In this document: one piece after another, positions 9,648 through 64,000 of the stretch
Layout of the letters: every line of letters begins with the position of its first letter
Numbering within the stretch: the stretch's first letter is position 1
From: Paracyclopina nana
Lineage: Eukaryota; Arthropoda; Copepoda; Cyclopoida; Cyclopettidae
Direction of reading: 5' to 3'
Length of the DNA: 64,000 nucleotides
NCBI GenBank assembly: GCA_019096065.1
Contig: JAGUCH010000010.1
Span: 204,241 to 268,240 of the forward strand
Notes under the pieces: generated by a model
Seen by the model: only the letters and a program-made list of their open reading frames with translations
What the model was told of the DNA's origin: nothing
Databases searched by the model: none
Translations under genes and position numbers: made by a program

Positions 9648-9865
9648 TGAAATAATAAGTACTATTTGTGAAATAATAATTACTATTTGTGAAATAATAA
9701 TAACTACTTGTGAAATAATAATTACTATTTATGAAATAATAATTACTCCTTATGAAAAAAAATAATTACTATTAATGAAATAATAATTACTTTTTTATGA
9801 AATAATAATTACTATTTATGATATAATAATTAATATTCATGAACTAATAATTACTATTTTGTTGG
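9648..9865. repeat. 21 bp minisatellite, AATAATTACTATTTGTGAAAT
   Basis: About ten AT-rich tandem units with point changes and small A-run insertions. Confidence 0.85.
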
Positions 9866-10900
9866 AAATCCACTTTACACTTGGGCTAATTTCATAGCTA
9901 ATTTTGGAGGCTATTTAGGACTTTTATTGGGTACAAGATTTCCGTCCATTTTTGACTACATTTCAGCTAACATTGAGCACATGAAGAATTGACTTTTCTC
10001 ACCCTTTTTTGGCAGAGAAGACAGAGATAAATTGTCACAGCAATCAAGCCATTTAATCTTGAAAAAGAAAGGACTTTTGGAATTGAATCTGATGTGGTGT
10101 TCATCTGCAAATTCAACCAAAAATATTTAGATCAATTTTTGCCATATTGTGCACTTTTAAGTTTTAATAATATATTCAGTCTTAAATTCCTTGTTTCACA
10201 TGAACGAAGCTCAAGTTTCTTAAAGTTGTTTGTTGGCAAACGCCTAAAATATTTTCCTGCCAAGTTCAGTCATCGGCCTTCCGGATGATGCCAAATCAAA
10301 CACTTGATTCACTTTTCAAGTGGGCTACGCACTCTGTGCCGCACTAATATAGTATTGAGAAATATCGAGAAATCTCTAGTTCTAACAACATTGAACCCAC
10401 AAATTGAAAAAGAGAGTTCTTGAGAGAGGTTAGTTTCAAGCGACATTCCCCAGAGTGCTTGCTAAATGGCTCTCTTTAGGACTGGGCCACGCTAAAGTAG
10501 TTGGCAGGTTGGGGTTTTTGCGCTAGCCTCCATTTTGAAGGTTCTTGGCCAAGAGATATTAGTGACATTATGGTCGTTAGTGGTGATGAGAAAGGCTGGG
10601 ACGACAAAGCGGCCCATGGTTATAATTCCCACCTTGCCAGATCAACACCAACTTCTTGACATTCGGCCAAATGAGAAGATATCCAGTCCAAGCCCAGGCT
10701 CAGGAGCGTCAACAACAACCTCAATATGGTGCGTACTTCTCACTTGCAAAGTCCCATTCGAAAAGCATTTCATAATAGTTCACTTGGAACAAATCTCAAC
10801 CAAAAACTTCTTTTCTCAACTTTTGGGTTTTGCGTTGCATGAAGCTGATATTATTTCACATTTGCTCACGGGCTTTTGCAAGTGATTTGCTTTTTTGAAG
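9866..10900. other. Upstream region of EF-hand gene 1, first exon unresolved
   Basis: An ATG at 10726-10728 is followed at once by GTGCGT, a possible donor. Splicing it to the acceptor TTTTTTGAAG at 10891-10900 would give a Met directly before the first recognised exon in the right phase. This one-codon start exon is only a candidate. Confidence 0.3.
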
Positions 10901-28500: not shown

Positions 28501-31500
28501 CTATTTACATTGATCATCGTCAGTTTGCTTCAGCACACCGGGCATAAATTGCACTCGCTTTTCTATGGCATCATGAGAACCAGCCAAGTAGTACTTGTCA
28601 TTCGATTCATTGTCATTGGTTTCATCCCTGAAGTCGTCAAACTTGACCACATCACACCGATGAGAAATGGTTTGCACATCATTTTCGTCATAGTGGTTTG
28701 ACTCGAACAAGGCTCCCTGAAAATGCTTAAAAGTTAATAAACTGAAACTTAAAATATATCCATCTCCATTTATATATATATATATATATATATATAAGCT
28801 TGAACCTTTGGACATCTTTTTTTGTTTTCTGACAAAATGAAAAATATTAATTTAAATTCCGCATGACAGAAAAAAATAAATGATGCATCAGTTTTTATCG
28901 GGGCAATTTTCTTGGTTGCCTTGGGAAAATTGAATTTTATCGGTCTTTTCCCTTTAAAATTGATTGTTTCAGTTATTACAAAAAATCTTTCCAACGATAT
29001 CATTTAAAAGTCCTGTATCTCTTGAATAAGTGACACAAAATTTAGATTCCCGTACCGTCCAATTTTGAATGGACAGACTGTATAATAAGTATATAAATAA
29101 TACATATATACTAAGTATATAATATGAATTAAATTAGTTGAGTCACCTTGGGTTGGAGAAGGTTGTTGAGACTTTTTCGATCCTTCACATTCAATTCTGC
29201 AAGATGGTAGTACCACCGTACGCCTACATTTTTGTTGCCCGATGCCGTCTCCCACATGGATTCTAGGCGCCCAATGTAAGGTTGATCCGGGCAGTTGGTT
29301 GATAGGAAAACAGCGCTGTCACCAATGCCCAACTTCTCATCCTTGCGCTCAATCAGCTTATGGTAAATCCGACCCTTTGCCCTCTTTTGCCCCTTGTCTG
29401 CCCATTTCCAGACTTGATCCTTGGGCAAAAAAGAGGCGATTCCACCATTCTTGCTTCCGTCTATTTCAGAATCGGAGCTCTGGAAAGATGCAATTGAATT
29501 GTATTGCTGGGTATTTTTATATAGGACACAAGTCAACTTACTGATGAAATGGAAGGTCTTGGTGCCAGATTAGCCTTTCTGACAACTTTTGTGTTTGCAT
29601 GAGGTTGCTTACTTGGCTGACTGCCCACATGGATGCGCATCTTCAGACTTTGCTTGCATTCCGGATCAAGACTTGGTTTAATGCTACCATCTTCTCGAAC
29701 CACATGGCTTTGTTTACTTTCTTGCTTGACACCCACAATGTTTTGTTTACTTTTCTTCTGAAGTGGCTCGGTGTCAAATGAACTTCTCGGTGTCTTGGGG
29801 GAAAAGCTTGCCCAGGATTGACGACGTTTACGCCGATGCAAAGTTGTCATCAATGGATCCGGATCATGCACTGAAAGAAATGTCATCCATATACCAAATG
29901 CCAAGATATTGCATGAAGTGTGTCCTACCAACAAGAGGATAATTTGGGGGGAGAAAGCGTATACTGTCTACATGTATGTCCCGATTGTCTCCATCGTCCA
30001 GTTCCACATTGACATAGTTGCTGTCAAGTTTGGGGTCAATTTCAATATCACTGATGGTGCCTGGATACAGATGATTGTACTTTTGGCTCCAGTAAGCGCA
30101 CACACGAGTGCCAATCGTCAAGGCATCAACTGAATGTGGACGAACTTCGAATATCTGCAAAAAAAGAACATGTTCTTCATACTCTGAAGTTGTAATAAGT
30201 TGTAATGACGTACAGCTTCATTGAGGACTTCCTCCCTCGAGAAAATGTGGGGCTTGTTGCCCCTCTCTTTGTCAACCAGAACCCCATAAATGTCTGGTGG
30301 ACTTATGGCCTGGATTTTGCCAGGATGAAAGTGTCCGTCCAATTTGACCAGAACACGTAAACCCTCTTCCAGATCATCTTGCTTTATCAAGCACGACTCA
30401 GGACCTGCATTGCAAACCAACACTATTATAGTATGAATTACTCATAATGAAGAGAATGATTACCCTGGATCGGCTCATGGATGTCATCATCGTCACATGT
30501 CGTTGATCGCCTTCGCTTCTTGTGGTGTTTGTGGTGGTGATGGCGATGATGCTTATGCTTTTCCTTCTTCTCCTTTTTGGCCTTCTTCTCTTGCTTCCGG
30601 ATCTTGAGCATCATCTTTGGCAAGGGCTGCTCTTCTTCCTCAGCATCACTGACGTCAGCATCAACATTGAGATCTTCCTTGAGAAGAAAGGCTTCCTTCT
30701 TCACAATTGTTGGCGTGTCCAATTTAGACACTTCTTGCTTCTTCGGACTTCTATCATTGTTAGCAGCATTAATAGACACTTCCTTCTTTATGGGACTTAC
30801 AGGAGAGATGAGATGAACTTCTCTCTTGATGTTGGCGCAAGACAAAGGTGTGCTTGTCTTGAGAATCGGCTCTGCCTTTGGAGTCTTGGTATTGGTACTT
30901 GGACTTACTGGTGTACACCGACCAGTTTTTGTGTCATGTAGAAGAAAGGCGTCTTTCTTTGGCGTCCAACTTGATACATTGTTCTTGGCATCCTCCTCCG
31001 GTGCAGAAGGCTTGCTACTAGTCAATTTAAGAAGATTCTCAAACGGATTCGGCCGCGCTGACCTGAATTTGGAGTTGATTGTAGACAAGTCAAGACCGTT
31101 GTTACTAGATGACGATGTATGTGGTGAACTGACAGGACTAGGGCTGGCCTTTGTAGGCTTCAGCCATGGAATGATTGGCGCCAATGTGGTCTTCTTATTG
31201 CTGGACAACTTGCTCGGTGATGATGTTGGTGGTTTGAGTTGTAAAAGCTCCTTGTATTTCTCCTTGTAACGCTTCTGTATCACTGCCAAATCGCCCCTCA
31301 TTTTGGCCTCCCACTCGTCCATTTGTGTCTGGCTTTTCGCAATAGCCCCTTTGTTTGATTTGCTTGCAATAAATGCCTTGGCTTTGGTCTCAGCCTTTGG
31401 ACTTTGGTACTCGCGACAATCAAGGCTCTTTGACCTGGACTTGCTACTACTTAGAGATTCATCATTGGGATTCTTCAGGTGGCCTTCATCATCACTCAGA

Positions 31501-32772
31501 AAAGCAGCATCACACAATAGGCCAAGCCTTGAAGGCCGTCTTCGTTCCTTTTCGTGTTTCTCAATACTTTCGGCCAAGATGTGAAGTCCAACCGGATCGA
31601 GCTCAGGTTCGCCAACAGACAAAACATCTTCGTGCACTTTGATCTCCACTGATTCTGGACGTTGTAGTGTCTTGTCTGCCTTTGGCCGTGGTTCTTCTTT
31701 GGCTGCCAACAGGGGGGACTGTTGTTGCTGATGATGGTGCTGATACAAGAAACCTTGACGAGCCTGGAGCCAGGATTCTTGCTGAAGTTGCATTAATGAC
31801 TGTTGGAAAGGCGTGAGACCGATGGGTGCTGATGGCGGTGGCGGGGCGGGTGAAGGCCACAGGGCGGCAGACATGGGGTTGAAGCCTGGCACAAAGAACA
31901 CTTGTCCTGTCAGAGGATCCTGGTAGCCTGGCTGATATGCCAGAGGCCACATCGGGGGCCAATACGGTCCAGCCGAAGCTAGAGAAGCTAATGTTGATGA
32001 AGACGATGTTGCCTGTTGAGGCAATGGTGGCGTAGGCCTTGGTGGGGTTTTCAAATCTCTTTGTCTGCCCACAGCAATGCCTATTGGGATGGACGTCTTG
32101 CTGTCTTCCTGATCTGAAGTCACCGTCTCGCTTTTCAGATGCTTCATCCCGGAGGACTCACTGGAGGCTGGACTACTGTTTGAGAACAAGGAACTCCAGG
32201 ACGATGATGAGAGCTGACCGCTTACACCCAGACCCGGGCTGGACGTCATGATGGAGATGGGTTCCCCAAGTTGGACACCAGAGCTTGACGTCAAAATGGA
32301 GATGGGCTCCCCAAGTTGGGCGCCATAATTTGACATTGGGGTTGCACTCAGCCTGGACGATTGCCATTGACGAAGGGACTTGTGATTCACCGGGGTTGTT
32401 CGAGAGCAATTGGCTGAAGAAAGGGACGAGTCCCAGTCTTCAAATGCTGAGTCGTTGCCATCAGTCGTCCCATCGTGGGCCACTCCATCTGGATTGCGCC
32501 TTTCTATTAATATAAGAACATGATTAAGATAGATAAGATATACTAAGATGCTGGCGCACCTGTCTTGATGTGGTGGTACACCAACGGCTTGGCTTCTGGA
32601 GTAAGCGAAATCGGTGGACTAGCCAACCGGTTGGGAATGGGCCGAATCACTGGGCTGAGGCTGCTGCTCACCGAGGCTGCTGCCAACAAAGGATGCGAAT
32701 GTCGACCGGTTGGATATGTCGTGGTGGTTTGCTCCCAAGCTGTGAAGTGTCGAGTGGTTGTCGTGGTTGCAC
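28501..32772 (-). CDS. BAHCC1/TNRC18/winged-eye type chromatin protein, Tudor-like and BAH domains
   Basis: Seven exons in transcript order: 32772-32560, 32503-30464, 30404-30214, 30154-29929, 29870-29542, 29479-29147 and 28716-28501; at least 1181 residues, all phases close. The long exon is low-complexity, rich in Ser, Pro, Gln and Lys, with LIxxSG-like and LGEPISI repeats and a basic His/Lys tract (HKHHRHHHHKHHKKRRR). Next come a Tudor-like segment (GLRVLVKLDGHFHPGKIQ, IYGVLVD) and a second (GTRVCAYWSQKYNHLYPGTI, YVNVELDDGD). After a basic linker a BAH domain starts near GIGDSAVFL and runs through IGRLESMWE and VRWYYHLAE to GALFESNHYDEND, RCDVVKF and YYLAGSHD. This order is that of BAHCC1/TNRC18 and Drosophila winged eye, nuclear histone-mark readers linked to silencing. 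The 5' exon was not found. Confidence 0.88.
28770..28796. repeat. TA dinucleotide microsatellite
   Basis: Uninterrupted TA tract in the last intron of the BAH gene. Confidence 0.9.
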
Positions 32773-33668: not shown

Positions 33669-33859
33669 CAGGATGCCGAGCAGGTCTCAACACGACGAGA
33701 ATCAGCTGAAACTCGAATCAGCTGACGAAAATCGGTTAAATTCCGTTGCGTAGCAAACAAATTAAAAAAATTCCGCCAAAGCGCACCGCGTCAACTCTTT
33801 TTGGCCAAATCCTACACTCTATTTTTCCCCTCGCTTACCCTGAGGCCTTTGGTGGTCAT

Positions 33860-34130
33860 TGTTGAGTTGGTAAGTGAGCCAATTTCGGGCCTGGGCCCCG
33901 GGGCCGCCTCGGGTCTCCTGCTTGGGCCCGAGGAGCCCGCGGGGCCCGCGGTTTGCCCCCGAGCTGCTGCTGTCACTAGGCAACAGCATCGCGATTTTCC
34001 ATTTTTTTTTATTTGCTGTTGTTGTTTTCTGATGGTCAACTTGGTTCAATGCCCAAAGTGAGACTGAATTGGTCGGCCCGGCGCGCCCGAGTTTGGGGCC
34101 ACTTTTATTTTTCGGTGCGTAGAAACGACG
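33860..34130. promoter_or_regulatory. GC-rich island, possible promoter of the BAH gene
   Basis: A sharply bounded GC-rich, CpG-containing stretch in AT-rich DNA about 1.1 kb upstream of the first recognised minus-strand exon. An untranslated first exon here would fit. No core promoter element was identified, so this rests on composition and position. Confidence 0.3.
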
Positions 34131-34231
34131 GTTGTTCGTCAAACGGGGCAGCGGGCGGCAAAATCTAGGGCGTATGCTCGAAACCACCAACTCAATGTTA
34201 GAAGCAGCTCTTTATTCTTTATTTTTTGTGT

Positions 34232-34440
34232 GGAGTATTTTCATCATTTTTCCGGAGTATTTTTATTATTTTTTGTGAAGTATTTTATAGTTTTTTGAGG
34301 TGCATTTTTATAGTTTTTTGAGGTGCATTTTTATAGTTTTTTGAGGTGCATTTTAATCATTAATTGAGGTGCATTTATATCATTTTTTGAGGTGCATTTT
34401 TATCATTTTTTGAGGATTATTTTTATTATTCTTTGTGGGC
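34232..34440. repeat. ~23 bp minisatellite, TGAGGTGCATTTTTATAGTTTTT
   Basis: About nine units, with TTATCATTTT and TTATAGTTTT subtypes. Confidence 0.8.
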
Positions 34441-35589
34441 TCTCAAAAGAATAGTATTTATTTCGAATCTTTGTTATTCAAAGGATGATGAAAAATCGAT
34501 GCTAGTTTTCACATTATGAAAAAAAATCTTTTTAACTAGAAAATTATTAAATGTAGTGCTCGAAATTGAAAACAAGCATTTTCTACGAAAAATTGAATTT
34601 TTAAGCTTAAAAAATGCCCAGGAATGTCGGAATGATTCATGGAATTATTTTTAAAAAAGTTGAGCTCGAGGCCGGATTCGATCTGTGAGCTGAGTCGCGC
34701 TGCGCTTCCAGAAGAATCACGCGTGCGCGCTGTGAAAAGCCGTGTGACCCGACGATTTCGCGACTTTTCTCCATTGCTCAAAATCGCGCCCTTTTTCGCG
34801 GATTTTGCACTTTTTTGGAGCCACTTCCGAATTCCGGTTGAAATTGGCTCGTTTTCAAGCGCAAAATCACACTCAACTTTGGCTGAAAAGTTTCACTTTA
34901 AGGCTGATTTCGATTGCCGTTTTTGGCTTTTACTAGCCAAGTTTTGGCCATTTTTGAAAGGTGAACACTGGCCACACTTTCACGTCAACCGGCAGGCGTT
35001 CTTTTTCCGTGAAAAAGGTATATTGAAACCCTCGGATCTTTTTTTGTCAGTTGCCAACCAACTTTTTTTCTGCGTCAAAAATGAGTCACACCACGTGGAT
35101 TTTTGCGGGAAAATCCCAAAAGTCACCAACAAAAAGATCTAAAATGCCAGTTTCTTCATTTAAAATTCACTTGTTTCAATTTCATTCTAAGAATTGCTCA
35201 GTTTTTTGTTTGTTTATTTTTATTTTTATTTTTAAAAAGCTGCTAATCTTCTGTAAAGTTTTCTTTTTTAAAGTTTCATTTTCATGGTCTCGATTTTCCA
35301 TTAACTATTTAAGCTCAGTTTTGTGCTCATTTCAAAATTAGGCCTCAGTTTGAGTGGGGCTAGGTCTTACGATTAGGCTCAGCAAAAAGCTCAGTTTGCT
35401 CAGTAGTGGGGATTTATCAACTTTGCTCACATCAGAAAAACCCTCATGAAAAACTGCATTCAAGCTTCTTCAAATTATTACTGCGATGATCAGATGATTA
35501 TTTTGAAAACAAAAACTGAGCTTCTTTTACAACCTCTATTGTCAAATGACAATTTTTAAATGAAGGCTCAATTTCGGTAACTTCAATTC
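34441..35589. other. No gene supported
   Basis: A 167-codon open frame at 34639-35142 has no recognisable domain and a Phe-rich composition expected from T-rich DNA. A CpG-richer patch lies at 34670-34770. Confidence 0.4.
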
Positions 35590-47825: not shown

Positions 47826-48574
47826 AGGTTAGGTTAGGTTAGGTTAGGTTAGGTTAGGTTAGGTTAGGTTAGGTTAGGTTAGGTTAGGTTAGGTTAGGTT
47901 AGGTTAGGTTAGGTTAGGTTAGGTTAGGTTAGGTTAGGTTAGGTTAGGTTAGGTTAGGTTAGGTTAGGTTAGGTTAGGTTAGGTTAGGTTAGGTTAGGTT
48001 AGGTTAGGTTGGGTTAGGTTAGGTTAGGTTAGGTTAGGTTAGGTTAGGTTGGAGTTAGGTTGGGTTAGGTTGCAGGTTAGGTTAGGTTAGGTTAGGTTAG
48101 GTTAGGTTAGGTTAGGTTAGGTTAGGTTAGGTTAGGTTAGGTTAGGTTAGGTTAGGTTAGGTTAGGTTAGGTTAGGTTAGGTTAGGTTAGGTTAGGTTAG
48201 GTTAGGTTAGGTTAGGTTAGGTTAGGTTAGGTTAGGTTAGGTTAGGTTAGGTTAGGTTAGGTTAGGTTAGGTTAGGTTAGGTTAGGTTAGGTTAGGTTAG
48301 GTTAGGTTAGGTTAGGTTGGGGTAGGTGAGGTGACGTTATGGTAGGTTAGGTTAGGTTAGGTTAGGTTAGGTTAGGTTAGGTTAGGTTAGGTTAGGTTAG
48401 GTTAGGTTAGGTTAGGTTAGGTTAGGTTAGGTTAGGTTAGGTTAGGTTAGGTTAGGTTAGGTTAGGTTAGGTTAGGTTAGGTTAGGTTAGGTTAGGTTAG
48501 GTTAGGTTAGGTTAGGTTAGGTTAGGTTAGGTTAGGTTAGGTTAGGTTAGGTTAGGTTAGGTTAGGTTAGGTTA
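47825..48574 (+). repeat. Internal (TTAGG)n telomeric array
   Basis: About 145 TTAGG units, G-rich strand reading rightwards. Interruptions occur near 48011, 48050-48075 (GGAGTTAGGTTGGG, TTGCAGG) and 48317-48343 (GGGGTAGGTGAGGTGACG). TTAGG is the usual arthropod telomere unit. It ends GTTAAGTTAACCTAAG, where one CCTAA is inverted. Confidence 0.95.
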
Positions 48575-49800
48575 AGTTAACCTAAGCGATGATCGGTGTA
48601 TCTTCCGTACTTTGCGGCCGAACGGGTTGCCACTCAGCAAAATTTCATTAATACAAAAGGACCCGATTTTTGTGCTCTACATTTGATATTTTATGAGTCT
48701 TGAAGATTCACCTACGTTTTCGGCCGCAAAGTTGAAAAAACCGTTTCGCCCTAATAAATACCGATGATCACTGTATCTTCCGTGGATTGCTCGCCCACGG
48801 GTTGCCACTGGGCCTTGCCCTTTATATCCTGAGCATTTCAGCCCATGCCCTACAACTTCTATTAGTAAAGTTTTTAATTCTACCTACCAGTTTTGGCCGC
48901 TCGCTTCATAACGATCATCGTTTTAACCCGATTTTTCACTTTTTGGCCTCCATTTTCAACTTTGAGGCCAGGGTTGACCCCATTTTTGTAGGTAGAATGG
49001 GCTGAAAAAAAACACCCGAACTGATTTAATCATCTGGGAACCCGATGGCGTTGGTCCCGGGCCCCAGTGGCAACCCGTTGGCCCGCAATCCACGGAAGAT
49101 ACACTTAAATCTTGCAGCCTGACCCCGCCAAGATTCAGAAGGAGTGGCCCAGGGGCCACACCCTTTGAATCTTATTATGAAACTTGGGGTCTGTGAACCC
49201 CAATCAGTTGTCAAAGTCGGGTTAGGACCCGATTTGGGGGTACTTTATTACTGAACTGCACTTTTTGACATAATGCCACCCCCCAGGTGGAGGTCAACTT
49301 CTACGTGGAGTGGCCTATCGGGTCGGCTGAGGTGTCCTCGGACAGGTTTTCAGGGGTGGAGAACCCGAATCTGCAGTCGGATTGGCGCTAGCTCCACTCC
49401 TAGTACCCGCAGGGTCCCAAATGGGGTACCCTATGTACTCCAACTCCCTCTTGGGGGGGTCTGACCCCAATGACCCATAAAACAAAAGTTGTTCAGTTTA
49501 GCCTCAGCTTTCATTTGCCGTATCGCGCGACCCGATCGGACCGGAAATAGCGATACTGGGCGGTCGCGGTCCATGTGGGCGCGCGCGGGTTTTGGGGCAA
49601 GTTTGGGCCCTGGGGGTAACTCGGGGGTCCTTTGAGATATCGGGACGTGCTCGGTGTCCTCGGTAGGGTTTTCGGGGGTGCTGAACCCGATTCTGGACCC
49701 CGATTTGGGCTACGAGGACCCGGTCCGTGACCCCGACTTGGGGCGTCACCCCAAAACTTTAACCCGCCCCAGATGGCTCATTTTTCACCCAAACTCGATG
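48575..49800. repeat. GC-richer subtelomere-like block, left part
   Basis: GTTGCCACT and TGTATCTTCCGT words recur: direct at about 48595 and 48775, inverted at about 49060-49106, and again in diverged form near 51030-51140. The segment from CGTGGATTGCTCGCCC to AATTCTACCT is repeated in diverged form at 51040-51145. No gene is credible. Confidence 0.6.
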
Positions 49801-52800
49801 AAACTTTGGATTCTGGCTCCCAGCACTTTCCTTACTCAGCACAGTCAGCTGATTTCAAAACTGCTGAGTCGTTTTCTCAGCACTCGGTAGAGCCGGAACG
49901 GTAAGAGATATCAAAAAACTTATTTAGCAAAAGTTGCTCAGCACCCCAAAACATGTAAGCGTACCGAATCTCAGCATCTCAGTAAAGCGACTCAGCACCC
50001 CAAAACGGCGAGATACAGCAAAGTCATTGAAGCAAAAGTTGTTGCAAATAAGTCACTGACTTCAGAACTGGTCTTGTTTTTGAGCTAGGCCGCTTTCTAG
50101 GAAATCGTCGAAAAATCCATAAGGCCCTGGCCTTGGGAAAACTCGACTTTTTCCTGAGTCATTTTATGGAATTGGCTATGAAGTACAAAGATGTAGAGGA
50201 GCTCAGCACGACCTCATAACAGTAAATGGATCCATGGTGGGACGCTCCGTTGCTGAGATATCGATCGTCAAAGTTTACTGCTGCTGAGCCCCCTGAAAAA
50301 GTGCACTTTTTCGCTGAGTTGTCCGATTGGGCTGAGACTTGGCACAAATGATCTACTAGATGCCATGAGTCAGCACACCAAAGGATTTGGTGCTCAGCAG
50401 CTCAGCAGCGGAGTTATTTAGCCAGATATGCTCAGCATAAAACCCTGCTCAGCAGAGAACCAGCTGAGCTGTGATAAAAACTGATGGCACTTTCTAATAG
50501 CCCATAAGACAGTGATCATTTATCAGTAAAGACTTTTCATATATCTCATCATTCTGCTGAGTTATTAAGTAAAAACCTGAAAATGGGGTCAAATGGGAGG
50601 CTGAATAACTCCGCTGCTGAGCGTTTTTGGGCATATGTTTACTTGAGATTATCTGCTCAGAATGTGACAGAGAACAATCGTACCAAGTTTCAGCTCAATC
50701 CGAGCACTTTGAAAAATCGGCCACTTTTTCTAAGGCTACCCCCTTGGGAAAACTCGACTTTTTCCCAAGTCATTTTATGGACTTGACTATGAAGTACAAA
50801 GTTGTAGAGGAGCTCAGCCTGACTTCAAAACCGTAAATTGAAGTCTGCTGAGACTCTCCGTTGCTGAGATAGCTCTGAGCTCTCAGCAGTACTAGAAGTG
50901 AGACTTAATAGTGGACTTAGCGACTTGACTATGAAGTACAAACTTGTTAGGTTGCTCAAGACAAGCTCAGATCAGTAAATGGATTTCTGCTGAGACGCTC
51001 CGTTGCTGAGATATTGTTGCGCCATGACAACTGTCCCTTCCATGGATTGTGGGCCAACGGGTTGCCACTCAGCCGAGATATTTGAATCCTGAGTACTTGA
51101 GGACCTTGGCTACAACTTATATTAGCAAAGTTTTCAATTCTACCTTTGAAATTTGAAGTAAACGATTTTCAAAGCTCAGCTGTGCAGTGCTGAGATCGAT
51201 CGCAAGTATATGCTGAGATATCAAGTTGACTATGAAGTACAAAGTTGTAGAGGAGCTCAGCCTGACTTCAGAACAGTAAATTGATGTCTGCTGAGACGCT
51301 CTGTTGCTGAGATAGCGCTGAGCTCGGAGCACTATATAACTTCGTAAATGAAAATGCGCTGAGCTACTTTGAGTACTAATAAAAGTGATAGAGAATGTCA
51401 AGACGAATTCATGAGGTCAAATAGAAGTGAGCTGAGACTCTCCGTTGCTGAGATATCGCGCGCCGAAGTTTACTATATAGACTTTGTTTACTTTTCCATT
51501 TTAGCTCGAATTTTCGGCCTTTTTGGGGCTAAAAGTGATGGAAAAGGGGCAGTTCTTGCAGCCAAGTCTTCCTTTTGGTCCTTTCTTGGACTTTTTCAAG
51601 TATTTGAAGACTTTATAGCTTTCTAAAGTGGAAATTTCCGCGAAAAACGGATCGCGTCAAATTTCGAGCGATCAAATTAAAGTCGGTCTACGGCCTTTGA
51701 CACCTTGAAACCTTGTAGAGGAGGTTGCCCTGACTTCATAGCATCAAATTGGGGCAAAATATCTGGTCTAGAACCGGAGATATCGCGCGCCAAAGTTTTC
51801 GCTTAATAGCAGCCTAACTGCTGAGTTTTACGGAGACTTCTAGCTGAGCTATCTTGTTTACTATTTAGCAAAAAGTGTTCAGTTTGGTCTCCCATTTCCA
51901 AATCTGTAAAGAGTTTCAAAATCGGAGCATTTTTCGAATTTTCGCATGCTTAACGAGTTTTAAGTACACTGCTATGTACTACGTAGTACATAAGGCCTTT
52001 CGTTCTGAAGCAGCGGCAGTAAAAGTGGAGATATGAATTTTGCTATGAAGTAAAAGTAGTTTCTGCTGAGTCTCTGGATTCCATAGAAGTAAACAGTTTT
52101 AAAATCGGACAACTACGAGCTGAGATAGCGCTGAGCGCTCAGCAGTACAAGTAAGCGGACTAGGACGTGGACTTGTGGACTTGGCTTTGAAGTACAAAGT
52201 GGTAGAGGAGCTCAGCACAACTTCAGAAAAGTAAATTGATCCGAGCTATGACGCTCCGTTGCTGAGATATCGCGCGCCGAAGTTTACTGTATAGAGTTTG
52301 TTTACTTTTGCATTTTGGGCCCGAATTTGGCCTGTTTTGGGGCCTAAAACTACTCGAAATGGGGCAATTCTTCCTCCCAAGACTTCCTTTTATTGTTTTC
52401 TTGGACTTTTTCATGAATTTGAAGACTTTATTGCATTCTAGAGTGGAATTTTCCGCGAAAAACGGATCGCGTCAAATTTCGAGCGATCAAATTAAAGTCG
52501 GTCTACGGCCTTTGACACCTTGAAACCTTGTAGAGGAGGTTGCCCTGACTTCATAGCATCAAATTGGGGCAAAATATCTGGTCTAGAACCGGAGATATCG
52601 CGCGCCAAAGTTTTCGCTTAATAGCAGCCTAACTGCTGAGTTTTACGGAGACAAGGAGCTGAGATATCTTGTTTACTATTTAGCAAAAAGTGTTCAGTTT
52701 GGTCTCCCATTTCCAAAACTGTAAATAGTTCCAAAATCGGAGCATTTTTCGAATTTTCGTATTGAATAGACGGATGAAACGCAGCCTTATGTACTACGGA

Positions 52801-54240
52801 CTACATAGAGCGTTTCGTTCAGAACTAGCTCAAGTAAAAGTGGACTTATGAACTTTGCTATGAAATAAAAAAATGATCAGCTGAGTCTCAGGATTTCATA
52901 GGTATAAATAGTTTTAAAATCGGACAACTACGAGCTGAGATAGCGCTGAGCGCTCAGCAGTACAGAACCAGCGGACTTGGAAGTGGACTTGTGGACTTGG
53001 CTTTGAAGTACAAAGTGGTAGAGGAGCTCAGCCCGACTTCAGAACAGTAAATTGATCCGAGCTGTGACGCTCCGTTGCTGAGATATAGATCGTCAAAGTT
53101 TACTGCTGCTGAGCCCCCTGAAAAAGTGCACTTTTTCGCTGAGTTGTCCGATTGGGCTGAGACTTGGCACAAATGGTCCACTAGATGCCATGAGTCAGCA
53201 CACCAAAGGATTTGGTGCTCAGCAGCTCAGCAGCAAAGTTATTTAGCCAGATATGCTCAGCATAAAACCCTGCTCAGCAGAGAACCAGCTGAGCTGTGAT
53301 AAAAACTGATGGCACTTTCTAATAGCCCATAAGACAGTGATCATTTATCAGTAAAGACTTTTCATATATCTCATCATTCTGCTGAGTTATTAAGTAAAAA
53401 CCTGATAATGGGGTCAAATGGGAGGCTGAATAACTCCGCTGCTGAGCGTTTTTGGGCATATGTTTACTTGAGATTATCTGCTCAGAATGTGACGGAGAAC
53501 ATTCATACCAAGTTTCAGCTCAATCCGAGCACTTTGAAAAATCGGCCACTTTTTCTAAGGCTACCCCCTTAGGAAAACTCGACTTTTTGCCAAGTCATTT
53601 TATGGACTTGACTATGAACCAAGACTTGTAGAGGAGCTCGGCCTGACTTCAAAAACGTAAATTGAAGTGTGCTGAGACGCTCCGTTGCTGAGATATAGGG
53701 GGTCAAAGTCTCGAAATCGGGCCCCAGAAGGAGCGGTCTCTCAGAAAATTTCATAAAATAAGAAATGATGGGGACATCAAGGGCTACTTGCATATCAAAT
53801 TTCAGCTCTGTAGCTCAACATTTAGAGTTGCTGAGTCGGTTGTTTACTTTGCTGAGACTCGGTCAAAATGATGTTTGATTTATTTGCAACAACTTTTGCT
53901 TCAATGACTTTGCTGTATCTTGTCATTTTTGGTTGCTGAGTCACTTGGCTGAGATGCTGAGACTTGGTCAAAATGATGTTTGATTTATTTGCAACAACTT
54001 TTGCTTCAATGACTTTGCTGTATCTGCTCATTTTAGAATGCTGAGTCACTTGGCTGAGATGCTGAGACTTGTTATATAAGGGTATTTTGGGGTGCTGAGC
54101 AACTTTTGCTAAATAAGTTTTTTGATATCTCTCACCGTTTCTGAGATACAGAGTGCTGAGAAAGTGACTCAGCTGTTTTGAAATCAGCTGACTGTGCTGA
54201 GTTGGCTCCATAAAGGACTCAGCTGTAAGTGAAAAATCAG
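49800..54240. repeat. Subtelomere-like nested duplications with GCTGAGATAT motif
   Basis: Four levels are visible. (1) About 49827-50048 is repeated inverted at about 53870-54200 (GATACAGCAAAGTCATTGAA). (2) About 50196-50800 is repeated directly and almost identically at 53022-53624. (3) About 51430-52180 is repeated directly at about 52240-52980. (4) ACGCTCCGTTGCTGAGATA recurs at least six times. Open frames in it are short and unlike known domains. Confidence 0.8.
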
Positions 54241-55127
54241 TTTTGGGCTCGTTCGGAGTGATAATCTGCGAAAAAAACGGGGTCTATATTTGGGGTGGCC
54301 CCCTCAAACGGGGTCAAAATCGGGGTCAGGGGGCCAAAGTTAGGGTCATTGTAAGGTATAGTGGGTCAGTAATGTGCTCAGTAGTTAAGAAACGGGTTAT
54401 ATAGTGGGGGCGGGGCCCAAAATCGGGGTCAAAATCGGGGTCCTAGGCCCCCCAGGGGTCATCTGGGGGGGTTGCGGTAGGTTGCGGTAGGTCGCGGTAG
54501 GGTAATGGGCGAATCGCTGAGCGATTCCCCAATGGGTGAAAAGTTAAAGTCCAGTCTCTCTAGTCCTTTCCTCCGTTAGCTGGGGGTGGGGCTAACTTGG
54601 GGCCCGATCGGGGTAGAGGGCCAATTCCAACGCCAGTGCGTAGCCCTGACCCTAAGGAACCCGGGGGTACCAGCCCCGGGGCCCCCAGGCCCATGGGGGC
54701 GGGGCCAGGGGCGTTAGTGCAGTTGTTTGTAGTTTGGTACAAATAATCCATAGTACTATGTATATACCCTATGTAGGTACTTAGGGTCCGGAAAATCCTT
54801 ATGTAGTAAAGTGGGAGTAGGTGCTAGGGCAAAGTGGTCATAGGGAAAGTTGTTCATCTTGATGAGGGGCATCTTTTCTATTAATGAAATTTTTCACCTA
54901 GGCCTAAGGCCTGGGAGATGGGCCTAACCTAAGTTTTGCCCTTTAGGCTGGGCTGCCCTAAAAACGTACACGTGGAATCAGCTGATTTTTGGTGAGGAAG
55001 TGGGGGGTACCAAGGTCTACCACCATGCCAAGTTTCAGCTTCCAGTTACGTCGTTTACTGTGTATCATAACCGCGATCATCGCGATCATCGCTAATGATC
55101 ATCGCTCTATGTAGTGATCGACTTAAG
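54241..55127. repeat. G-rich subtelomeric segment next to the terminal array
   Basis: Clusters of GGGGTCAAAATCGGGGTC and a short tandem GGTTGCGGTAGG at 54470-54502. GATCATCGC is repeated at 55073-55106 directly before the TTAGG start. Confidence 0.6.
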
Positions 55128-55152
55128 TTAGGTTAGGTTAGGTTAGGTTAGG
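55128..55152 (+). repeat. Five TTAGG units at the base of the terminal array
   Basis: Exactly five perfect TTAGG copies follow CGACTTAAG and pass without a break into CCAGG units at 55153, in register. Confidence 0.95.
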
Positions 55153-58100
55153 CCAGGCCAGGCCAGGCCAGGCCAGGCCAGGCCAGGCCAGGCCAGGCCA
55201 GGCCAGGCCAGGCCAGGCCAGGCCAGGCCAGGCCAGGCCAGGCCAGGCCAGGCCAGGCCAGGCCAGGCCAGGCCAGGCCAGGCCAGGCCAGGCCAGGCCA
55301 GGCCAGGCCAGGCCAGGCCAGGCCAGGCCAGGCCAGGCCAGGCCAGGCCAGGCCAGGCCAGGCCAGGCCAGGCCAGGCCAGGCCAGGCCAGGCCAGGCCA
55401 GGCCAGGCCAGGCCAGGCCAGAAGCCAGGCCAGGCCAGGCCAGGCCAGGCCAGGCCAGGCCAGGCCAGGCCAGGCCAGGCCAGGCCAGGCCAGGCCAGGC
55501 CAGGCCAGGCCAGGCCAGGCCAGGGCCAGGCCAGGCCAGGCCAGGCCAGGCCAGGCCAGGCCAGGCCAGGCCAGGCCAGGCCAGGCCAGGCCAGGCCAGG
55601 CCAGGCCAGGCCAGGCCAGGCCAGGCCAGGCCAGGCCAGGCCAGGCCAGGCCAGGCCAGGCCAGGCCAGGCCAGGCCAGGCCAGGCCAGGCCAGGCCAGG
55701 CCAGGCCAGGCCAGGCCAGGCCAGGCCAGGCCAGGCCAGGCCAGGCCAGGCCAGGCCAGGCCAGGCCAGGCCAGGCCAGGCCAGGCCAGGCCAGGCCAGG
55801 CCAGGCCAGGCCAGGCCAGGCCAGGCCAGGCCAGGCCAGGCCAGGCCAGGCCAGGCCAGGCCAGGCCAGGCCAGGCCAGGCCAGGCCAGGCCAGGCCAGG
55901 CCAGGCCAGGCCAGGCCAGGCCAGGCCAGGCCAGGCCAGGCCAGGCCAGGCCAGGCCAGGCCAGGCCAGGCCAGGCCAGGCCAGGCCAGGCCAGGCCAGG
56001 CCAGGCCAGGCCAGGCCAGGCCAGGCCAGGCCAGGCCAGGCCAGGCCAGGCCAGGCCAGGCCAGGCCAGGCCAGGCCAGGCCAGGCCAGGCCAGGCCAGG
56101 CCAGGCCAGGCCAGGCCAGGCCAGGCCAGGCCAGGCCAGGCCAGGCCAGGCCAGGCCAGGCCAGGCCAGGCCAGGCCAGGCCAGGCCAGGCCAGGCCAGG
56201 CCAGGCCAGGCCAGGCCAGGCCAGGCCAGGCCAGGCCAGGCCAGGCCAGGCCAGGCCAGGCCAGGCCAGGCCAGGCCAGGCCAGGCCAGGCCAGGCCAGG
56301 CCAGGCCAGGCCAGGCCAGGCCAGGCCAGGCCAGGCCAGGCCAGGCCAGGCCAGGCCAGGCCAGGCCAGGCCAGGCCAGGCCAGGCCAGGCCAGGCCAGG
56401 CCAGGCCAGGCCAGGCCAGGCCAGGCCAGGCCAGGCCAGGCCAGGCCAGGCCAGGCCAGGCCAGGCCAGGCCAGGCCAGGCCAGGCCAGGCCAGGCCAGG
56501 CCAGGCCAGGCCAGGCCAGGCCAGGCCAGGCCAGGCCAGGCCAGGCCAGGCCAGGCCAGGCCAGGCCAGGCCAGGCCAGCCAGGCCAGGCCAGGCCAGGC
56601 CAGGCCAGGCCAGGCCAGGCCAGGCCAGGCCAGGCCAGGCCAGGCCAGGCCAGGCCAGGCCAGGCCAGGCCAGGCCAGGCCAGGCCAGGCCAGGCCAGGC
56701 CAGGCCAGGCCAGGCCAGGCCAGGCCAGGCCAGGCCAGGCCAGGCCAGGCCAGGCCAGGCCAGGCCAGGCCAGGCCAGGCCAGGCCAGGCCAGGCCAGGC
56801 CAGGCCAGGCCAGGCCAGGCCAGGCCAGGCCAGGCCAGGCCAGGCCAGGCCAGGCCAGGCCAGGCCAGGCCAGGCCAGGCCAGGCCAGGCCAGGCCAGGC
56901 CAGGCCAGGCCAGGCCAGGCCAGGCCAGGCCAGGCCAGGCCAGGCCAGGCCAGGCCAGGCCAGGCCAGGCCAGGCCAGGCCAGGCCAGGCCAGGCCAGGC
57001 CAGGCCAGGCCAGGCCAGGCCAGGCCAGGCCAGGCCAGGCCAGGCCAGGCCAGGCCAGGCCAGGCCAGCCAGGCCAGGCCAGGCCAGGCCAGGCCAGGCC
57101 AGGCCAGGCCAGGCCAGGCCAGGCCAGGCCAGGCCAGGCCAGGCCAGGCCAGGCCAGGCCAGGCCAGGCCAGGCCAGGCCAGGCCAGGCCAGGCCAGGCC
57201 AGGCCAGGCCAGGCCAGGCCAGGCCAGGCCAGGCCAGGCCAGGCCAGGCCAGGCCAGGCCAGGCCAGGCCAGGCCAGGCCAGGCCAGGCCAGGCCAGGCC
57301 AGGCCAGGCCAGGCCAGGCCAGGCCAGGCCAGGCCAGGCCAGGCCAGGCCAGGCCAGGCCAGGCCAGGCCAGGCCAGCCAGGCCAGGCCAGGCCAGGCCA
57401 GGCCAGGCCAGGCCAGGCCAGGCCAGGCCAGGCCAGGCCAGGCCAGGCCAGGCCAGGCCAGGCCAGGCCAGGCCAGGCCAGGCCAGGCCAGGCCAGGCCA
57501 GGCCAGGCCAGGCCAGGCCAGGCCAGGCCAGGCCAGGCCAGGCCAGGCCAGGCCAGGCCAGGCCAGGCCAGGCCAGGCCAGGCCAGGCCAGGCCAGGCCA
57601 GGCCAGGCCAGGCCAGGCCAGGCCAGGCCAGGCCAGGCCAGGCCAGGCCAGGCCAGGCCAGGCCAGGCCAGGCCAGGCCAGGCCAGGCCAGGCCAGGCCA
57701 GGCCAGGCCAGGCCAGGCCAGGCCAGGCCAGGCCAGGCCAGGCCAGGCCAGGCCAGGCCAGGCCAGGCCAGGCCAGGCCAGGCCAGGCCAGGCCAGGCCA
57801 GGCCAGGCCAGGCCAGGCCAGGCCAGGCCAGGCCAGGCCAGGCCAGGCCAGGCCAGCCAGGCCAGGCCAGGCCAGGCCAGGCCAGGCCAGGCCAGGCCAG
57901 GCCAGGCCAGGCCAGAAGCCAGGCCAGGCCAGGCCAGGCCAGGCCAGGCCAGGCCAGGCCAGGCCAGGCCAGGCCAGGCCAGGCCAGGCCAGGCCAGGCC
58001 AGGCCAGGCCAGGCCAGGCCAGGCCAGGCCAGGCCAGGCCAGGCCAGGCCAGGCCAGGCCAGGCCAGGCCAGGCCAGGCCAGGCCAGGCCAGGCCAGGCC

Positions 58101-61100
58101 AGGCCAGGCCAGGCCAGGCCAGGCCAGGCCAGGCCAGGCCAGGCCAGGCCAGGCCAGGCCAGGCCAGGCCAGGCCAGGCCAGGCCAGGCCAGGCCAGGCC
58201 AGGCCAGGCCAGGCCAGGCCAGGCCAGGCCAGGCCAGGCCAGGCCAGGCCAGGCCAGGCCAGGCCAGGCCAGGCCAGGCCAGGCCAGGCCAGGCCAGGCC
58301 AGGCCAGGCCAGGCCAGGCCAGGCCAGGCCAGGCCAGGCCAGGCCAGGCCAGGCCAGGCCAGGCCAGGCCAGGCCAGGCCAGGCCAGGCCAGGCCAGGCC
58401 AGGGCCAGGCCAGGCCAGGCCAGGCCAGGCCAGGCCAGGCCAGGCCAGGCCAGGCCAGGCCAGGCCAGGCCAGGCCAGGCCAGGCCAGGCCAGGCCAGGC
58501 CAGGCCAGGCCAGGCCAGGCCAGGCCAGGCCAGGCCAGGCCAGGCCAGAAGCCAGGCCAGGCCAGGCCAGGCCAGGCCAGGCCAGGCCAGGCCAGGCCAG
58601 GCCAGGCCAGGCCAGGCCAGGCCAGGCCAGGCCAGGCCAGGCCAGGCCAGGCCAGGCCAGGCCAGGCCAGGCCAGGCCAGGCCAGGCCAGGCCAGGCCAG
58701 GCCAGGCCAGGCCAGGCCAGGCCAGGCCAGGCCAGGCCAGGCCAGGCCAGGCCAGGCCAGGCCAGGCCAGGCCAGGCCAGGCCAGGCCAGGCCAGGCCAG
58801 GCCAGGCCAGGCCAGGCCAGGCCAGGCCAGGCCAGGCCAGGCCAGGCCAGGCCAGGCCAGGCCAGGCCAGGCCAGGCCAGGCCAGGCCAGGCCAGGCCAG
58901 GCCAGGCCAGGCCAGGCCAGGCCAGGCCAGGCCAGGGCCAGGCCAGGCCAGGCCAGGCCAGGCCAGGCCAGGCCAGGCCAGGCCAGGCCAGGCCAGGCCA
59001 GGCCAGGCCAGGCCAGGCCAGGCCAGGCCAGGCCAGGCCAGGCCAGGCCAGGCCAGGCCAGGCCAGGCCAGGCCAGGCCAGGCCAGGCCAGGCCAGGCCA
59101 GGCCAGGCCAGGCCAGGCCAGGCCAGGCCAGGCCAGGCCAGGCCAGGCCAGGCCAGGCCAGGCCAGGCCAGGCCAGGCCAGGCCAGGCCAGGCCAGGCCA
59201 GGCCAGGCCAGGCCAGGCCAGGCCAGGCCAGGCCAGGCCAGGCCAGGCCAGGCCAGGCCAGGCCAGGCCAGGCCAGGCCAGGCCAGGCCAGGCCAGGCCA
59301 GGCCAGGCCAGGCCAGGCCAGGCCAGGCCAGGCCAGGCCAGGCCAGGCCAGGCCAGGCCAGGCCAGGCCAGGCCAGGCCAGGCCAGGCCAGGCCAGGCCA
59401 GGCCAGGCCAGGCCAGGCCAGGCCAGGCCAGGCCAGGCCAGGCCAGGCCAGGCCAGGCCAGGCCAGGCCAGGCCAGGCCAGGCCAGGCCAGGCCAGGCCA
59501 GGCCAGGCCAGGCCAGGCCAGGCCAGGCCAGGCCAGGCCAGGCCAGGCCAGGCCAGGCCAGGCCAGGCCAGGCCAGGCCAGGCCAGGCCAGGCCAGGCCA
59601 GGCCAGGCCAGGCCAGGCCAGGCCAGGCCAGGCCAGGCCAGGCCAGGCCAGGCCAGGCCAGGCCAGGCCAGGCCAGGCCAGGCCAGGCCAGGCCAGGCCA
59701 GGCCAGGCCAGGCCAGGCCCAGGCCAGGCCAGGCCAGGCCAGGCCAGGCCAGGCCAGGCCAGGCCAGGCCAGGCCAGGCCAGGCCAGGCCAGGCCAGGCC
59801 AGGCCAGGCCAGGCCAGGCCAGGCCAGGCCAGGCCAGGCCAGGCCAGGCCAGGCCAGGCCAGGCCAGGCCAGGCCAGGCCAGGCCAGGCCAGGCCAGGCC
59901 AGGCCAGGCCAGGCCAGGCCAGGCCAGGCCAGGCCAGGCCAGGCCAGGCCAGGCCAGGCCAGGCCAGGCCAGGCCAGGCCAGGCCAGGCCAGGCCAGGCC
60001 AGGCCAGGCCAGGCCAGGCCAGGCCAGGCCAGGCCAGGCCAGGCCAGGCCAGGCCAGGCCAGGCCAGGCCAGGCCAGGCCAGGCCAGGCCAGGCCAGGCC
60101 AGGCCAGGCCAGGCCAGGCCAGGCCAGGCCAGGCCAGGCCAGGCCAGGCCAGGCCAGGCCAGGCCAGGCCAGGCCAGGCCAGGCCAGGCCAGGCCAGGCC
60201 AGGCCAGGCCAGGCCAGGCCAGGCCAGGCCAGGCCAGGCCAGGCCAGGCCAGGCCAGGCCAGGCCAGGCCAGGCCAGGCCAGGCCAGGCCAGGCCAGGCC
60301 AGGCCAGGCCAGGCCAGGCCAGGCCAGGCCAGGCCAGGCCAGGCCAGGCCAGGCCAGGCCAGGCCAGGCCAGGCCAGGCCAGGCCAGGCCAGGCCAGGCC
60401 AGGCCAGGCCAGGCCAGGCCAGGCCAGGCCAGGCCAGGCCAGGCCAGGCCAGGCCAGGCCAGGCCAGGCCAGGCCAGGCCAGGCCAGGCCAGGCCAGGCC
60501 AGGCCAGGCCAGGCCAGGCCAGGCCAGGCCAGGCCAGGCCAGGCCAGGCCAGGCCAGGCCAGGCCAGGCCAGGCCAGGCCAGGCCAGGCCAGGCCAGGCC
60601 AGGCCAGGCCAGGCCAGGCCAGGCCAGGCCAGGCCAGGCCAGGCCAGGCCAGGCCAGGCCAGGCCAGGCCAGGCCAGGCCAGGCCAGGCCAGGCCAGGCC
60701 AGGCCAGGCCAGGCCAGGCCAGGCCAGGCCAGGCCAGGCCAGGCCAGGCCAGGCCAGGCCAGGCCAGGCCAGGCCAGGCCAGGCCAGGCCAGGCCAGGCC
60801 AGGCCAGGCCAGGCCAGGCCAGGCCAGGCCAGGCCAGGCCAGGCCAGGCCAGGCCAGGCCAGGCCAGGCCAGGCCAGGCCAGGCCAGGCCAGGCCAGGCC
60901 AGGCCAGGCCAGGCCAGGCCAGGCCAGGCCAGGCCAGGCCAGGCCAGGCCAGGCCAGGCCAGGCCAGGCCAGGCCAGGCCAGGCCAGGCCAGGCCAGGCC
61001 AGGCCAGGCCAGGCCAGGCCAGGCCAGGCCAGGCCAGGCCAGGCCAGGCCAGGCCAGGCCAGGCCAGGCCAGGCCAGGCCAGGCCAGGCCAGGCCAGGCC

Positions 61101-61126
61101 AGGCCAGGCCAGGCCAGGCCAGGCCA
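55153..61126 (+). repeat. (CCAGG)n pentamer array, nearly perfect; probably a miscalled telomere
   Basis: About 1,195 units. The few interruptions are mostly one- or two-base slips (for example 55523, 56579, 57067, 57377, 57855, 58402, 58935, 59719) and three CCAGAAGCCAGG insertions (about 55419, 57913, 58547). CCAGG differs from TTAGG only by two T-to-C changes. The orientation is that of a right-hand telomere. The 2,189-codon minus frame through it (Gly-Leu-Ala-Trp-Pro) is a repeat artefact. Confidence 0.93.
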
Positions 61127-64000
61127 GCTGGGGCCAGGCCAGGCCAGGCCAGGCCAGGCCAGGCCAGGCCAGGCCAGCTAGCCAGGCCAGGCTCAGGCCA
61201 GCTGTGCTGCCAGGCCAGGCCAGGCCAGGCCAGGCCAGGCCAGGCCAGGCCAGGCCAGGCCAGGCCAGGCCAGGCCAGGCCAGGCCAGGCTCAGGCCAGG
61301 CCAGGCCAGGCCAGGCCAGGCCAGGCCAGGCCAGGCCAGAAGAAGAAGAAGAAGCCAGGAGCCAGGCCAGGCCAGGCCAGGCCAGGCCAGGCTGCGCAGC
61401 GCCAGTGCCATGGCCAGTGCCAGGCCAGCAGCCAGGCCAGGCCAGGCCAGGCCAGGCCAGGCCAGGCCAGCGAGCCAGGCCAGTGCCAGGCCAGGCCAGG
61501 CCAGGCCAGGCCAGGCCAGGGCCAGGCCAGGCCAGGCCAGGCCAGGCCAGGCCAGGCCAGGCCAGGCCAGGCCAGGCCAGGCCAGGCCAGGCCAGTTTAG
61601 CCAGGCTGCGCCGAAGAAGCAGGCGAAGCCAGGCCAGGCCAGGCCAGGCCAGGCCAGCGCCAGGCCAGGCCAGGCCAGTCAGCCAGGCCAGGCCGAGGTT
61701 GTGCCAGGCCACAGCCAGGCCAGGCCAGGCCAGGCTAGGCCAGGCCAGTGCCAGGCCAGGCCAGGCCAGCTGTGGCCAGGCCAGGCCAGTGCCAGGCCAG
61801 GCCAGGCCAGGCCAGGCCAGGCCAGGCCAGGCCAGGCCAGGCCAGGCCAGTGTCAGGCCAGGCCAGGTCAGGCCAGGCCAGGCCAGGCCAGGCCAGGCCA
61901 GGCCAGGCCAGGCCAGCTGAGAAGAAAGAAGCCAGGCTACAGGCCAGCTGAAGCCAGGCCAGGCCAGGCCAGGTTGTGCCAGGCCAGGCTAGGCCAGGCC
62001 AGGCCAGGCTAGGCCAGGCTGAAGCCAGGCCAGGCAAAGCCAGGCCAGGCTAGGCCAGGCCAGGCCAGGCCAGGCCAGGCCAGGCCAGGCCAGGTGCCAG
62101 GGCCGAGCTTTGAGCCCAGGCCTGCGCCAGGCCAGGCCAGGCCAGGCCAGGCCAGGCCAGGCCACAGCCAGGCCAGGCCAGGCCAGGCCAGGCCAGGCCA
62201 GGCCAGGCCAGGCGAGGCTAGGCCAGGCTGCGCCAGGCCAGGCCAGGCCAGGCCAGGCCAGGCCAGGCCAGGCCAGGCCAGGCTTGTGCCAGGCCAGGCC
62301 AGGCCAGGCCAGGCCAGGCCAGGCCAGGCCAGGCCAGGCCAGGCCAGGCCAGGCCAGGCCAGGCCAGGCCAGGCCAGGGCCGGTGGCTTAGGCGAAGCTG
62401 GAAGAAGAAGAAAATAGCCAGGCCAGGGCCAGGCCAGGCCAGGCCAGGCCAGGCCAGGCCAGGCCAGGCCAGGCCAGGCCAGGCCAGGCCAGTAAGAAGA
62501 AGCTAGGCCAGGTTGCCAGGCCAGGCCAGGCCAGGGCCAGGCCAGGCGAGGTTGCAGTGCCAGGCCAGGCCGGGCAAAGCCAGGCCAGGCCAGGCCAGGC
62601 CAGGCCAGGCCAGGCCAGGCCAGGCCAGGCCAGGCCAGAAGAAGCCAGGCCAGGCCAGGCCAGGCTAGGAACAGGCCAGGCCAGGCCAGGCCAGGCTAGG
62701 CCAGGCCAGGCCAGGCCAGGCCAGGCCAGGCCAGGCCAGGCTAGGCCGGAAAGAAGAAATAGCCAGGCCAGGCCAGGCCAGGCCAGGCCAGGCGCAGGCC
62801 AGGCCAGGCCAGGCCAGGCGGAAGCCAGGCCAGGCCAGGCCAGGCCAGGCCAGGCTCAGGCCAGGCTGGTGCCAGGCCAGGCCAGCACCATGGCCAGGCC
62901 AGGCCAGGCCAGGCCAGGCCAGGCCAGTGGCCAGGCCAGGCCAGGCCAGGCTAGTGCCAGTAAGCCATGCCAGCTGGTGCTGAAAACAGGCTGAAGAAGA
63001 AGAAGAAGAAGAAGCTGTGGCTGTACAGTGGCCAGGCCAGGCCAGGCCAGGCTGTGCTGTGCCAGGCCAGGCCAGGCTCAGGCTGGAAGCAGCTGGTGGC
63101 TTGTGCTGGAAGAAGCAGGGTTGTGAAGCAGGCCAGGCTGTGCCAGGCCAGGCCAGGCCAAAGGTGCCAGGCCAGGCCAGGCCAGGTTTGTGGCTGAAGA
63201 GCCAGGCCAGGCCAGGGCCAGGCCAGGCCGCGCCAGGCCAGGCCAGGCCAGGCCAGGCCAGGCCAGGCCAGGCCAGGCCAGGCCAGGCCAGGCCAGGCCA
63301 GGCCAGGCCAGGCCGAGGCCAGGCCAGGCCAGGCTGGCGGCCAGGCCAGGCCAGGCCAGGCCACAGTGGCCAGGCCAGGCCAGGCCAGGCCAGGCCAGGC
63401 CAGGCCAGGCCAGGCCAGTGCCAGGCCAGGCCAGGCTCAGCTTGTGCTAGGCCAGGCGAAGCCAGGCCAGGCCATGCCAGGCCAGGCCAGGCCAGGCCAG
63501 GCCAGGCCAGGCCAGGCCAGGCCAGGCCAGGCCAGGCCAGGCCAGGCCAGGCCAGGCGAAGGAAGCAGGCGAGGCGAGGCCAGGCCAGGCCAGGCTAGGC
63601 CAGGCCAGGCCAGGCTGTGCCAGGCTAGGCTTAGGCCAGTTGAGTTGAGGCAGGTTAGCAGTGCCAGGCGAGTTGCAACAGGCCAGGCCAGGCCAGGCCA
63701 GGCCAGGCCAGGCCAGGCCAGGCCAGGCCAGGCCAGGCCAGGCCAGGCCAGGCCAGGCCAGGCCAGGCCAGGCCAGGCCAGGCCAGTGCCAGGCCAGGCC
63801 AGGTTGTGCGCGAGGCCAGGCCAGGCCAGGCCAGGCCAGCCAGGCCAGGCCAGGCCAGGCCAAAGAAGAAGAAGTGCTGTTAGGGAAGCAGCTCAGGCCG
63901 TGGGCCAGGCCAGGCCAGGCCAGGCCAGGCCAGGCCAGGCCAGGCCAGGCCAGGCCAGGCCAGGCCAGGCCAGGCCAGGCCAGGCTGAAGAAGAAGAAGC
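61127..64000 (+). repeat. Ragged CCAGG array with GAAGAAGAA islands to the window end
   Basis: CCAGG runs are broken every 30-150 bp by AGCTG, TGTGC, GGCGAAG and by runs of GAA: about 61337, 61611, 61919, 62399, 62493, 62637, 62750, 62993, 63109, 63865 and 63987. The runs are always GAA on +, never TTC. Raggedness rises to the right. It continues beyond the window. Confidence 0.9.

Follow-up and report, generated by a model that had tools for sequence, protein, structure and literature searches.

Is the terminal array of contig C10 of the Paracyclopina nana assembly built of a telomeric pentamer new to arthropods, or is it an ordinary telomere that carries a false sequence? The question is raised by a window of 64,000 nucleotides, the whole stretch of DNA analysed (window positions 1–64000 correspond to positions 204241–268240 of C10), in which a few units of the canonical arthropod repeat TTAGG are followed by kilobases of CCAGG. 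We are highly confident that this CCAGG stands for a genuine TTAGG telomere whose letters were misread, an artefact of a known kind and not a new telomeric repeat; the miscall presumably originated in nanopore sequencing. CCAGG at this contig end is almost certainly a warning about the assembly rather than a new kind of telomere.

Junction and terminal array of contig C10

Read directly from the sequence, five TTAGG units (55128–55152, plus strand) abut CCAGG, which starts at 55153 with zero gap and with its units in register. The near-pure CCAGG core, interpreted here as a miscalled TTAGG telomere, spans 55153–61126 (plus strand; 5,974 bp) and contains 1,186 canonical units in runs of at least two, equivalent to 99.3% of its bases. 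A gapless passage of five TTAGG units into 6 kb of CCAGG was what the sequence-only reading had described, and both parts of that description hold. Only 11 interruptions occur in the core: in four of them a unit lacks a G, in three a G and in one a C is added, and three are CCAGAAG. All of these are single-base indels or GAAG insertions, and none is a base substitution.

Beyond the part covered by that reading, the array continues in degraded form from 61127 to 64000 (plus strand), with 375 canonical units (65% canonical) and 61 interruptions in 2,874 bp. This distal part carries blocks of GAAGAA and of TTGTG/CTGTG. Contig C10 (268,240 bp) stops at position 64000 of the window, and CCAGG totals about 9 kb at this end. 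A telomeric repeat is expected to have its G-rich strand running towards the tip; no such bias was found in the CCAGG core, where the GC skew at 56001–60000 is about zero (-0.004 and 0.001).

The terminal array is preceded by a subtelomeric unit, roughly 6.5 kb long (48580–55127, plus strand), further copies of which are located at other contig ends and are bordered by TTAGG or CCAGG arrays. This unit recurs near contig ends with TTAGG at its borders, and its last 428 bp gave at least 22 matches. Directly before it lies an interstitial TTAGG array of 0.75 kb (47829–48571, plus strand) with zero CCAGG and zero GAA runs, which serves as an internal control. Since this array was called correctly, the error is not uniform, and this counts against the reading of CCAGG as a miscall.

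Terminal arrays at the contig ends of the assembly

The assembly comprises 91,952,342 bp in 10 contigs, and all 20 contig ends were inspected over at least 10 kb, with the window representing end C10R. Pentamer arrays were present at 15 of these ends. Eleven carry TTAGG in outward orientation (C1R, C2L, C3R, C5L, C5R, C6L, C6R, C7L, C7R, C8L, and C9R), and four carry CCAGG (C1L, C2R, C4R, and C10R), with a CCAGG length of 8.5–12.6 kb each. The array stretch was counted from the first run of four units of the respective class to the last run of two; most TTAGG arrays exceed the inspected stretch, so that the counted TTAGG lengths are partial.

A terminal array is lacking in the inspected stretches (at least 10 kb each) of C3L, C4L, C8R, C9L, and C10L. 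C3L begins at a subtelomeric unit, C4L and C10L contain no array within 10 kb, and C9L consists of N for 10 kb. At C8R, eukaryotic small-subunit rRNA sequence (971–2514 and 8939–10000 of the end stretch) takes the place of a telomere; the assembly probably broke off within an rDNA array here. At C8L, 5 kb of N extend from beyond the TTAGG array to the contig end. Also, the C8L array includes a block of about 13 TTAGGG units as well as TGAGG blocks.

The two classes of ends differ in their minor units. GAA runs make up 843 bp of the 39,668 bp of the CCAGG class (684 bp at C1L, 105 bp at C10R, 45 bp at C4R, and 9 bp at C2R) and 6 bp of the 84,251 bp of the TTAGG class. TTGGG occurs 2,202 times in the TTAGG class vs 0 times in the CCAGG class, and the combined count of TTAGAG and TTAAGG is 394 vs 0. 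Stray units of the opposite class are limited to 10 TTAGG in the CCAGG class and 13 CCAGG in the TTAGG class. A Fisher test on a hand-entered table (4 of 4 vs 0 of 11 ends with more than 6 bp of GAA runs) gave p = 0.0007, a value that is only a guide because the cut was set after inspection of the data and the table was entered by hand. Noisy CCAGG stretches are also marked by TTGTG/CTGTG, with 66 occurrences in 39.7 kb vs 4 in the 84.3 kb of TTAGG arrays; these units may represent one more C-strand miscall of the pentamer.

Some features of this profile speak against a miscall. The GAA runs are very uneven across the CCAGG ends, and C2R has no more than 9 bp of them past its mixed edge. Also, the TTAAAA-type error of the G strand was not seen, with 0 TTAAA dimers in the 21 stretches examined.

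TTAGG units are retained at the edges of the CCAGG arrays (five at C10R, 12 at C1L, and 20 at C4R); the edge at C2R is a mixture of TTAGG, CCAGG, and GAAGAAG located before the counted stretch. CCAGG is in register with TTAGG at C10R, C1L, and C4R and in two interstitial arrays on C2 and C3. The in-register switch was discarded as a discriminator between a miscall and a real variant, since a real variant is also expected to be in register.

C10R has 10 interruptions in its first 4 kb and 55 in its last 2.5 kb; the corresponding numbers are 5 and 39 at C4R, 2 and 10 at C1L, and 8 and 7 at C2R. The C1L array is noisiest in its middle, with GAA runs of up to 18% per kb. DNA made by telomerase is expected to be cleanest at the tip, and the tip noise at C10R and C4R therefore fits falling read coverage better than biology. 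As evidence, tip noise is weakened by the other two ends: it is weak at C1L and absent at C2R.

Genome-wide occurrence of CCAGG and interstitial arrays

Across the genome (92 Mb), (CCAGG)6 has 5,981 matches, 4,247 forward and 1,734 reverse, vs 0 matches for the control, the same pattern read backwards; the CCAGG array is therefore not a product of chance. All 4,247 forward matches are confined to C2R, C4R, and C10R. The 1,734 reverse matches are all located in C1L (1,541), in an interstitial array on C3 (85), and in an interstitial array on C2 (108).

These two interstitial INTERSTITIAL arrays, on C2 and C3, have TTAGG-bearing edges and a CCAGG middle. The C2 array (33727–34802) proceeds from a TTAGG run to CCAGG interspersed with a few lone TTAGG units, then to a mosaic of the two, and finally to TTAGG, and it stops where the start of the subtelomeric unit would stand. 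Whole units toggle between TT and CC in this array, in which TCAGG, CTAGG, and GAA runs were all not found. The C3 array (11984–12863) starts with TTAGG, continues with about 670 bp of CCAGG, and then becomes a patchwork of TTAGG, CCAGG, and GAAGAA. It sits between end-like and start-like sequence of the subtelomeric unit represented in the window by 48580–55127; in the window, the array that directly precedes this unit is the internal control described above, which is TTAGG and holds no CCAGG.

If CCAGG were a real variant, its origin should have involved intermediates that differ by one base. In seven stretches, counted with the noisy distal parts of the arrays excluded, TCAGG preceded by GG occurs 0 times and CTAGG three times (two in C3 and one in C2R). 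The noisy distal interruptions do include intermediates, namely four CTAGG at C10R as well as three CTAGG and two TCAGG at C4R.

An allelic copy of the junction on contig C6

C10 matches the right arm of C6 at three places in the same order and orientation, with 98–100% identity. The matches comprise 1.8 kb in two pieces (98 and 99%), 2.5 kb (99%), and 507 bp with two mismatches, the latter reaching the array and including its first five TTAGG units. These matches suggest that C10 is a haplotig, an allelic copy of the C6 right arm that was left uncollapsed, and (TTAGG)5 at 55128–55152 is the part of the terminal array that both copies have in common. At the shared junction, C6 reads (TTAGG)19, then another subtelomeric unit, and then (TTAGG)21, in a reading that leaves out 7160001–7176283; the C6 end belongs to the TTAGG class. 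C6 continues past the end of C10, so that the junction is the same and the terminal array a different one, which counts against the miscall reading.

Comparison with known systems

The assembly resembles one with canonical arthropod (TTAGG)n telomeres in that 11 of its 20 ends carry outward-oriented TTAGG and in that the genome contains a telomerase match. The latter is a partial, stop-free match to Telomerase_RBD (positions 72–130 of 133, 39.9 bits, cut-off 25), a putative telomerase RNA-binding domain that fits a TTAGG telomere. Unlike such an assembly, it has four ends with CCAGG, taken here as false, and five ends with no array.

Miscalling of telomeric repeats in nanopore reads was reported by Tan et al. 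(2022; PMC9414165). According to the sections of that paper used here, CCCTAA of the C strand is called as CCCTGG or CTTCTT, this error is commoner on the C strand, and the error proportion exceeds 90% in 69.5% of C-strand reads. The same sections list TTAAGG, TTAGAG, and TTGGGG as current look-alikes of TTAGGG, the similarity of true and false signals being published for the six-base repeat. The arrays of P. nana share with that report the conversion of C-strand AA into GG (here CCTAA into CCTGG) together with CTTCTT, and the occurrence of TTAGAG, TTAAGG, and a TTGGGG-like unit (here the five-base TTGGG) on the opposite class. By their sequence, the TTGGG, TTAGAG, and TTAAGG variants at the TTAGG ends match or resemble the published look-alikes. 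The repeats considered in those sections have six and seven bases, whereas here a five-base arthropod repeat is affected and the error fills finished contig ends. Also, the TTAAAA-type errors of that report are absent here, and TTGTG/CTGTG is additional.

The beetle repeat (TCAGG)n (PMC8977481, PMC10767889) is one C away from TTAGG, whereas CCAGG differs from TTAGG at two positions. In the portions of TeloBase and of an insect survey used here (PMC8977481, PMC10767889), TCAGG is given as an insect variant and TTGGG is included in TeloBase; the string CCAGG occurs in neither of the two main texts. A literature search for CCAGG/CCTGG as a miscalled TTAGG telomere gave no such paper among the matches listed. 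Nanopore base-calling is named as a possible cause of missing telomeres in two assembly papers (PMC11432806, PMC10236652, as excerpted).

The main published result against the miscall reading is that on Chenopodium (PMC10521516), where, in the text available, CCTGGG arrays in R9.4 nanopore reads are claimed to be real with support from FISH. The AA-to-GG change on the C strand is identical to that in P. nana. The Chenopodium arrays have a seven-base parent and are mainly pericentromeric, whereas those studied here occupy contig ends and two interstitial positions near ends.

Origin of the CCAGG arrays

Under the preferred reading, the chromosome end would be an ordinary telomerase-type (TTAGG)n telomere, and reads of its C-rich strand, truly (CCTAA)n, would be base-called as (CCTGG)n with CTTCTT patches. 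Miscalled reads probably do not overlap correct ones inside the telomere, and the assembler would then take one read population per end. C10 would have been assembled from the miscalled population, and CCAGG and GAAGAA would be the reverse complement of those calls. Most simply, a single strand would have supplied the bulk of the reads at any given assembled end. The edge units may have remained TTAGG through correction by reads anchored in the unique flank; that both interstitial arrays keep TTAGG at their two edges is as such edge correction predicts. The distal end would be the noisiest if the fewest reads reach the tip and coverage falls.

That CCTAA had been read as CCTGG on a true TTAGG telomere was the favoured explanation of the sequence-only reading. 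It is supported by the occurrence of TTAGG arrays at a further 11 contig ends, by GAAGAA, the reverse complement of the published CTTCTT error, inside the CCAGG arrays, by the two interstitial arrays with a CCAGG middle between TTAGG-bearing edges, and by C6, whose allelic copy of this junction reads TTAGG. The reported nanopore error CCCTAA to CCCTGG, to which that reading had appealed, is indeed found in the consulted part of Tan et al. (2022; PMC9414165). The alternative given in that reading, a new telomeric pentamer, gained no support: only four of the 15 array-bearing ends are CCAGG, and the other 11 are TTAGG.

CCAGG could be a genuine variant satellite, substituted for TTAGG on some arms via subtelomere recombination or a changed telomerase template, but we consider this very unlikely. 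CCAGG runs are long, point the way telomeric repeats do, and occur nowhere but in telomere-type arrays, whether terminal or interstitial; subtelomeric units are common to several arms, so that exchange is possible; and TCAGG and TTGGG are among the reported insect variants (PMC10767889, PMC8977481, in the parts used). The GAAGAA blocks and the indel-only interruptions of the C10R core nevertheless fit miscalling better, as does the unit-wise toggling of TT and CC in the C2 array with neither TCAGG nor CTAGG, and CCAGG is devoid of the telomeric bias of G over C. Furthermore, one telomerase template cannot produce two sequences on different arms, which also counts against a real CCAGG. If physical CCAGG were a second telomeric pentamer beside TTAGG, spread among some arms by recombination of subtelomeric units, one genome would have two telomere sequences on different chromosome ends; we give this very little credence.

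A real strand-specific A-to-G conversion (deamination) of the C-rich strand, turning CCTAA into CCTGG in the DNA itself, would agree with the precise nature of the change (A,A into G,G on a single strand) and with the toggling of whole units. We know of no such process at telomeres, however, and the GAAGAA/CTTCTT blocks are unpredicted by deamination, whereas the published error predicts them; the probability of this explanation is minimal. Practically negligible is also the chance that a foreign (CCAGG)n satellite became attached to chromosome ends through contamination or misassembly. The status of C10 (268 kb) as a contig of its own speaks for it, but C10 matches C6 in order and orientation at 98–100% identity. 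Moreover, the step from TTAGG to CCAGG keeps the register at C10R, C1L, and C4R, and CCAGG is also present after the mixed edge of C2R and inside the two interstitial arrays.

With CCAGG regarded as miscalled TTAGG, the published error, reported for six- and seven-base repeats, also affects the arthropod pentamer. Assembly-based surveys of telomere motifs could mistake CCAGG (or CCTGG) for a novel telomere of arthropods. The error can be exposed without reads, by mutually exclusive classes of contig ends, GAAGAA beside CCAGG, mosaics of units in interstitial arrays, and an allelic copy.

Other features of the assembly and the window

COX1 was not found in a search of the assembly. An open reading frame at 26192–26746 of the window (plus strand) has a C-type lectin match that exceeds the cut-off; its LNR (Notch) match is weak and stays below the cut-off. 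Another open reading frame, of 726 amino acids (30438–32618, minus strand), has 27 relatives, including one from the copepod Lepeophtheirus salmonis (salmon louse; 28% identity, E 6e-8).
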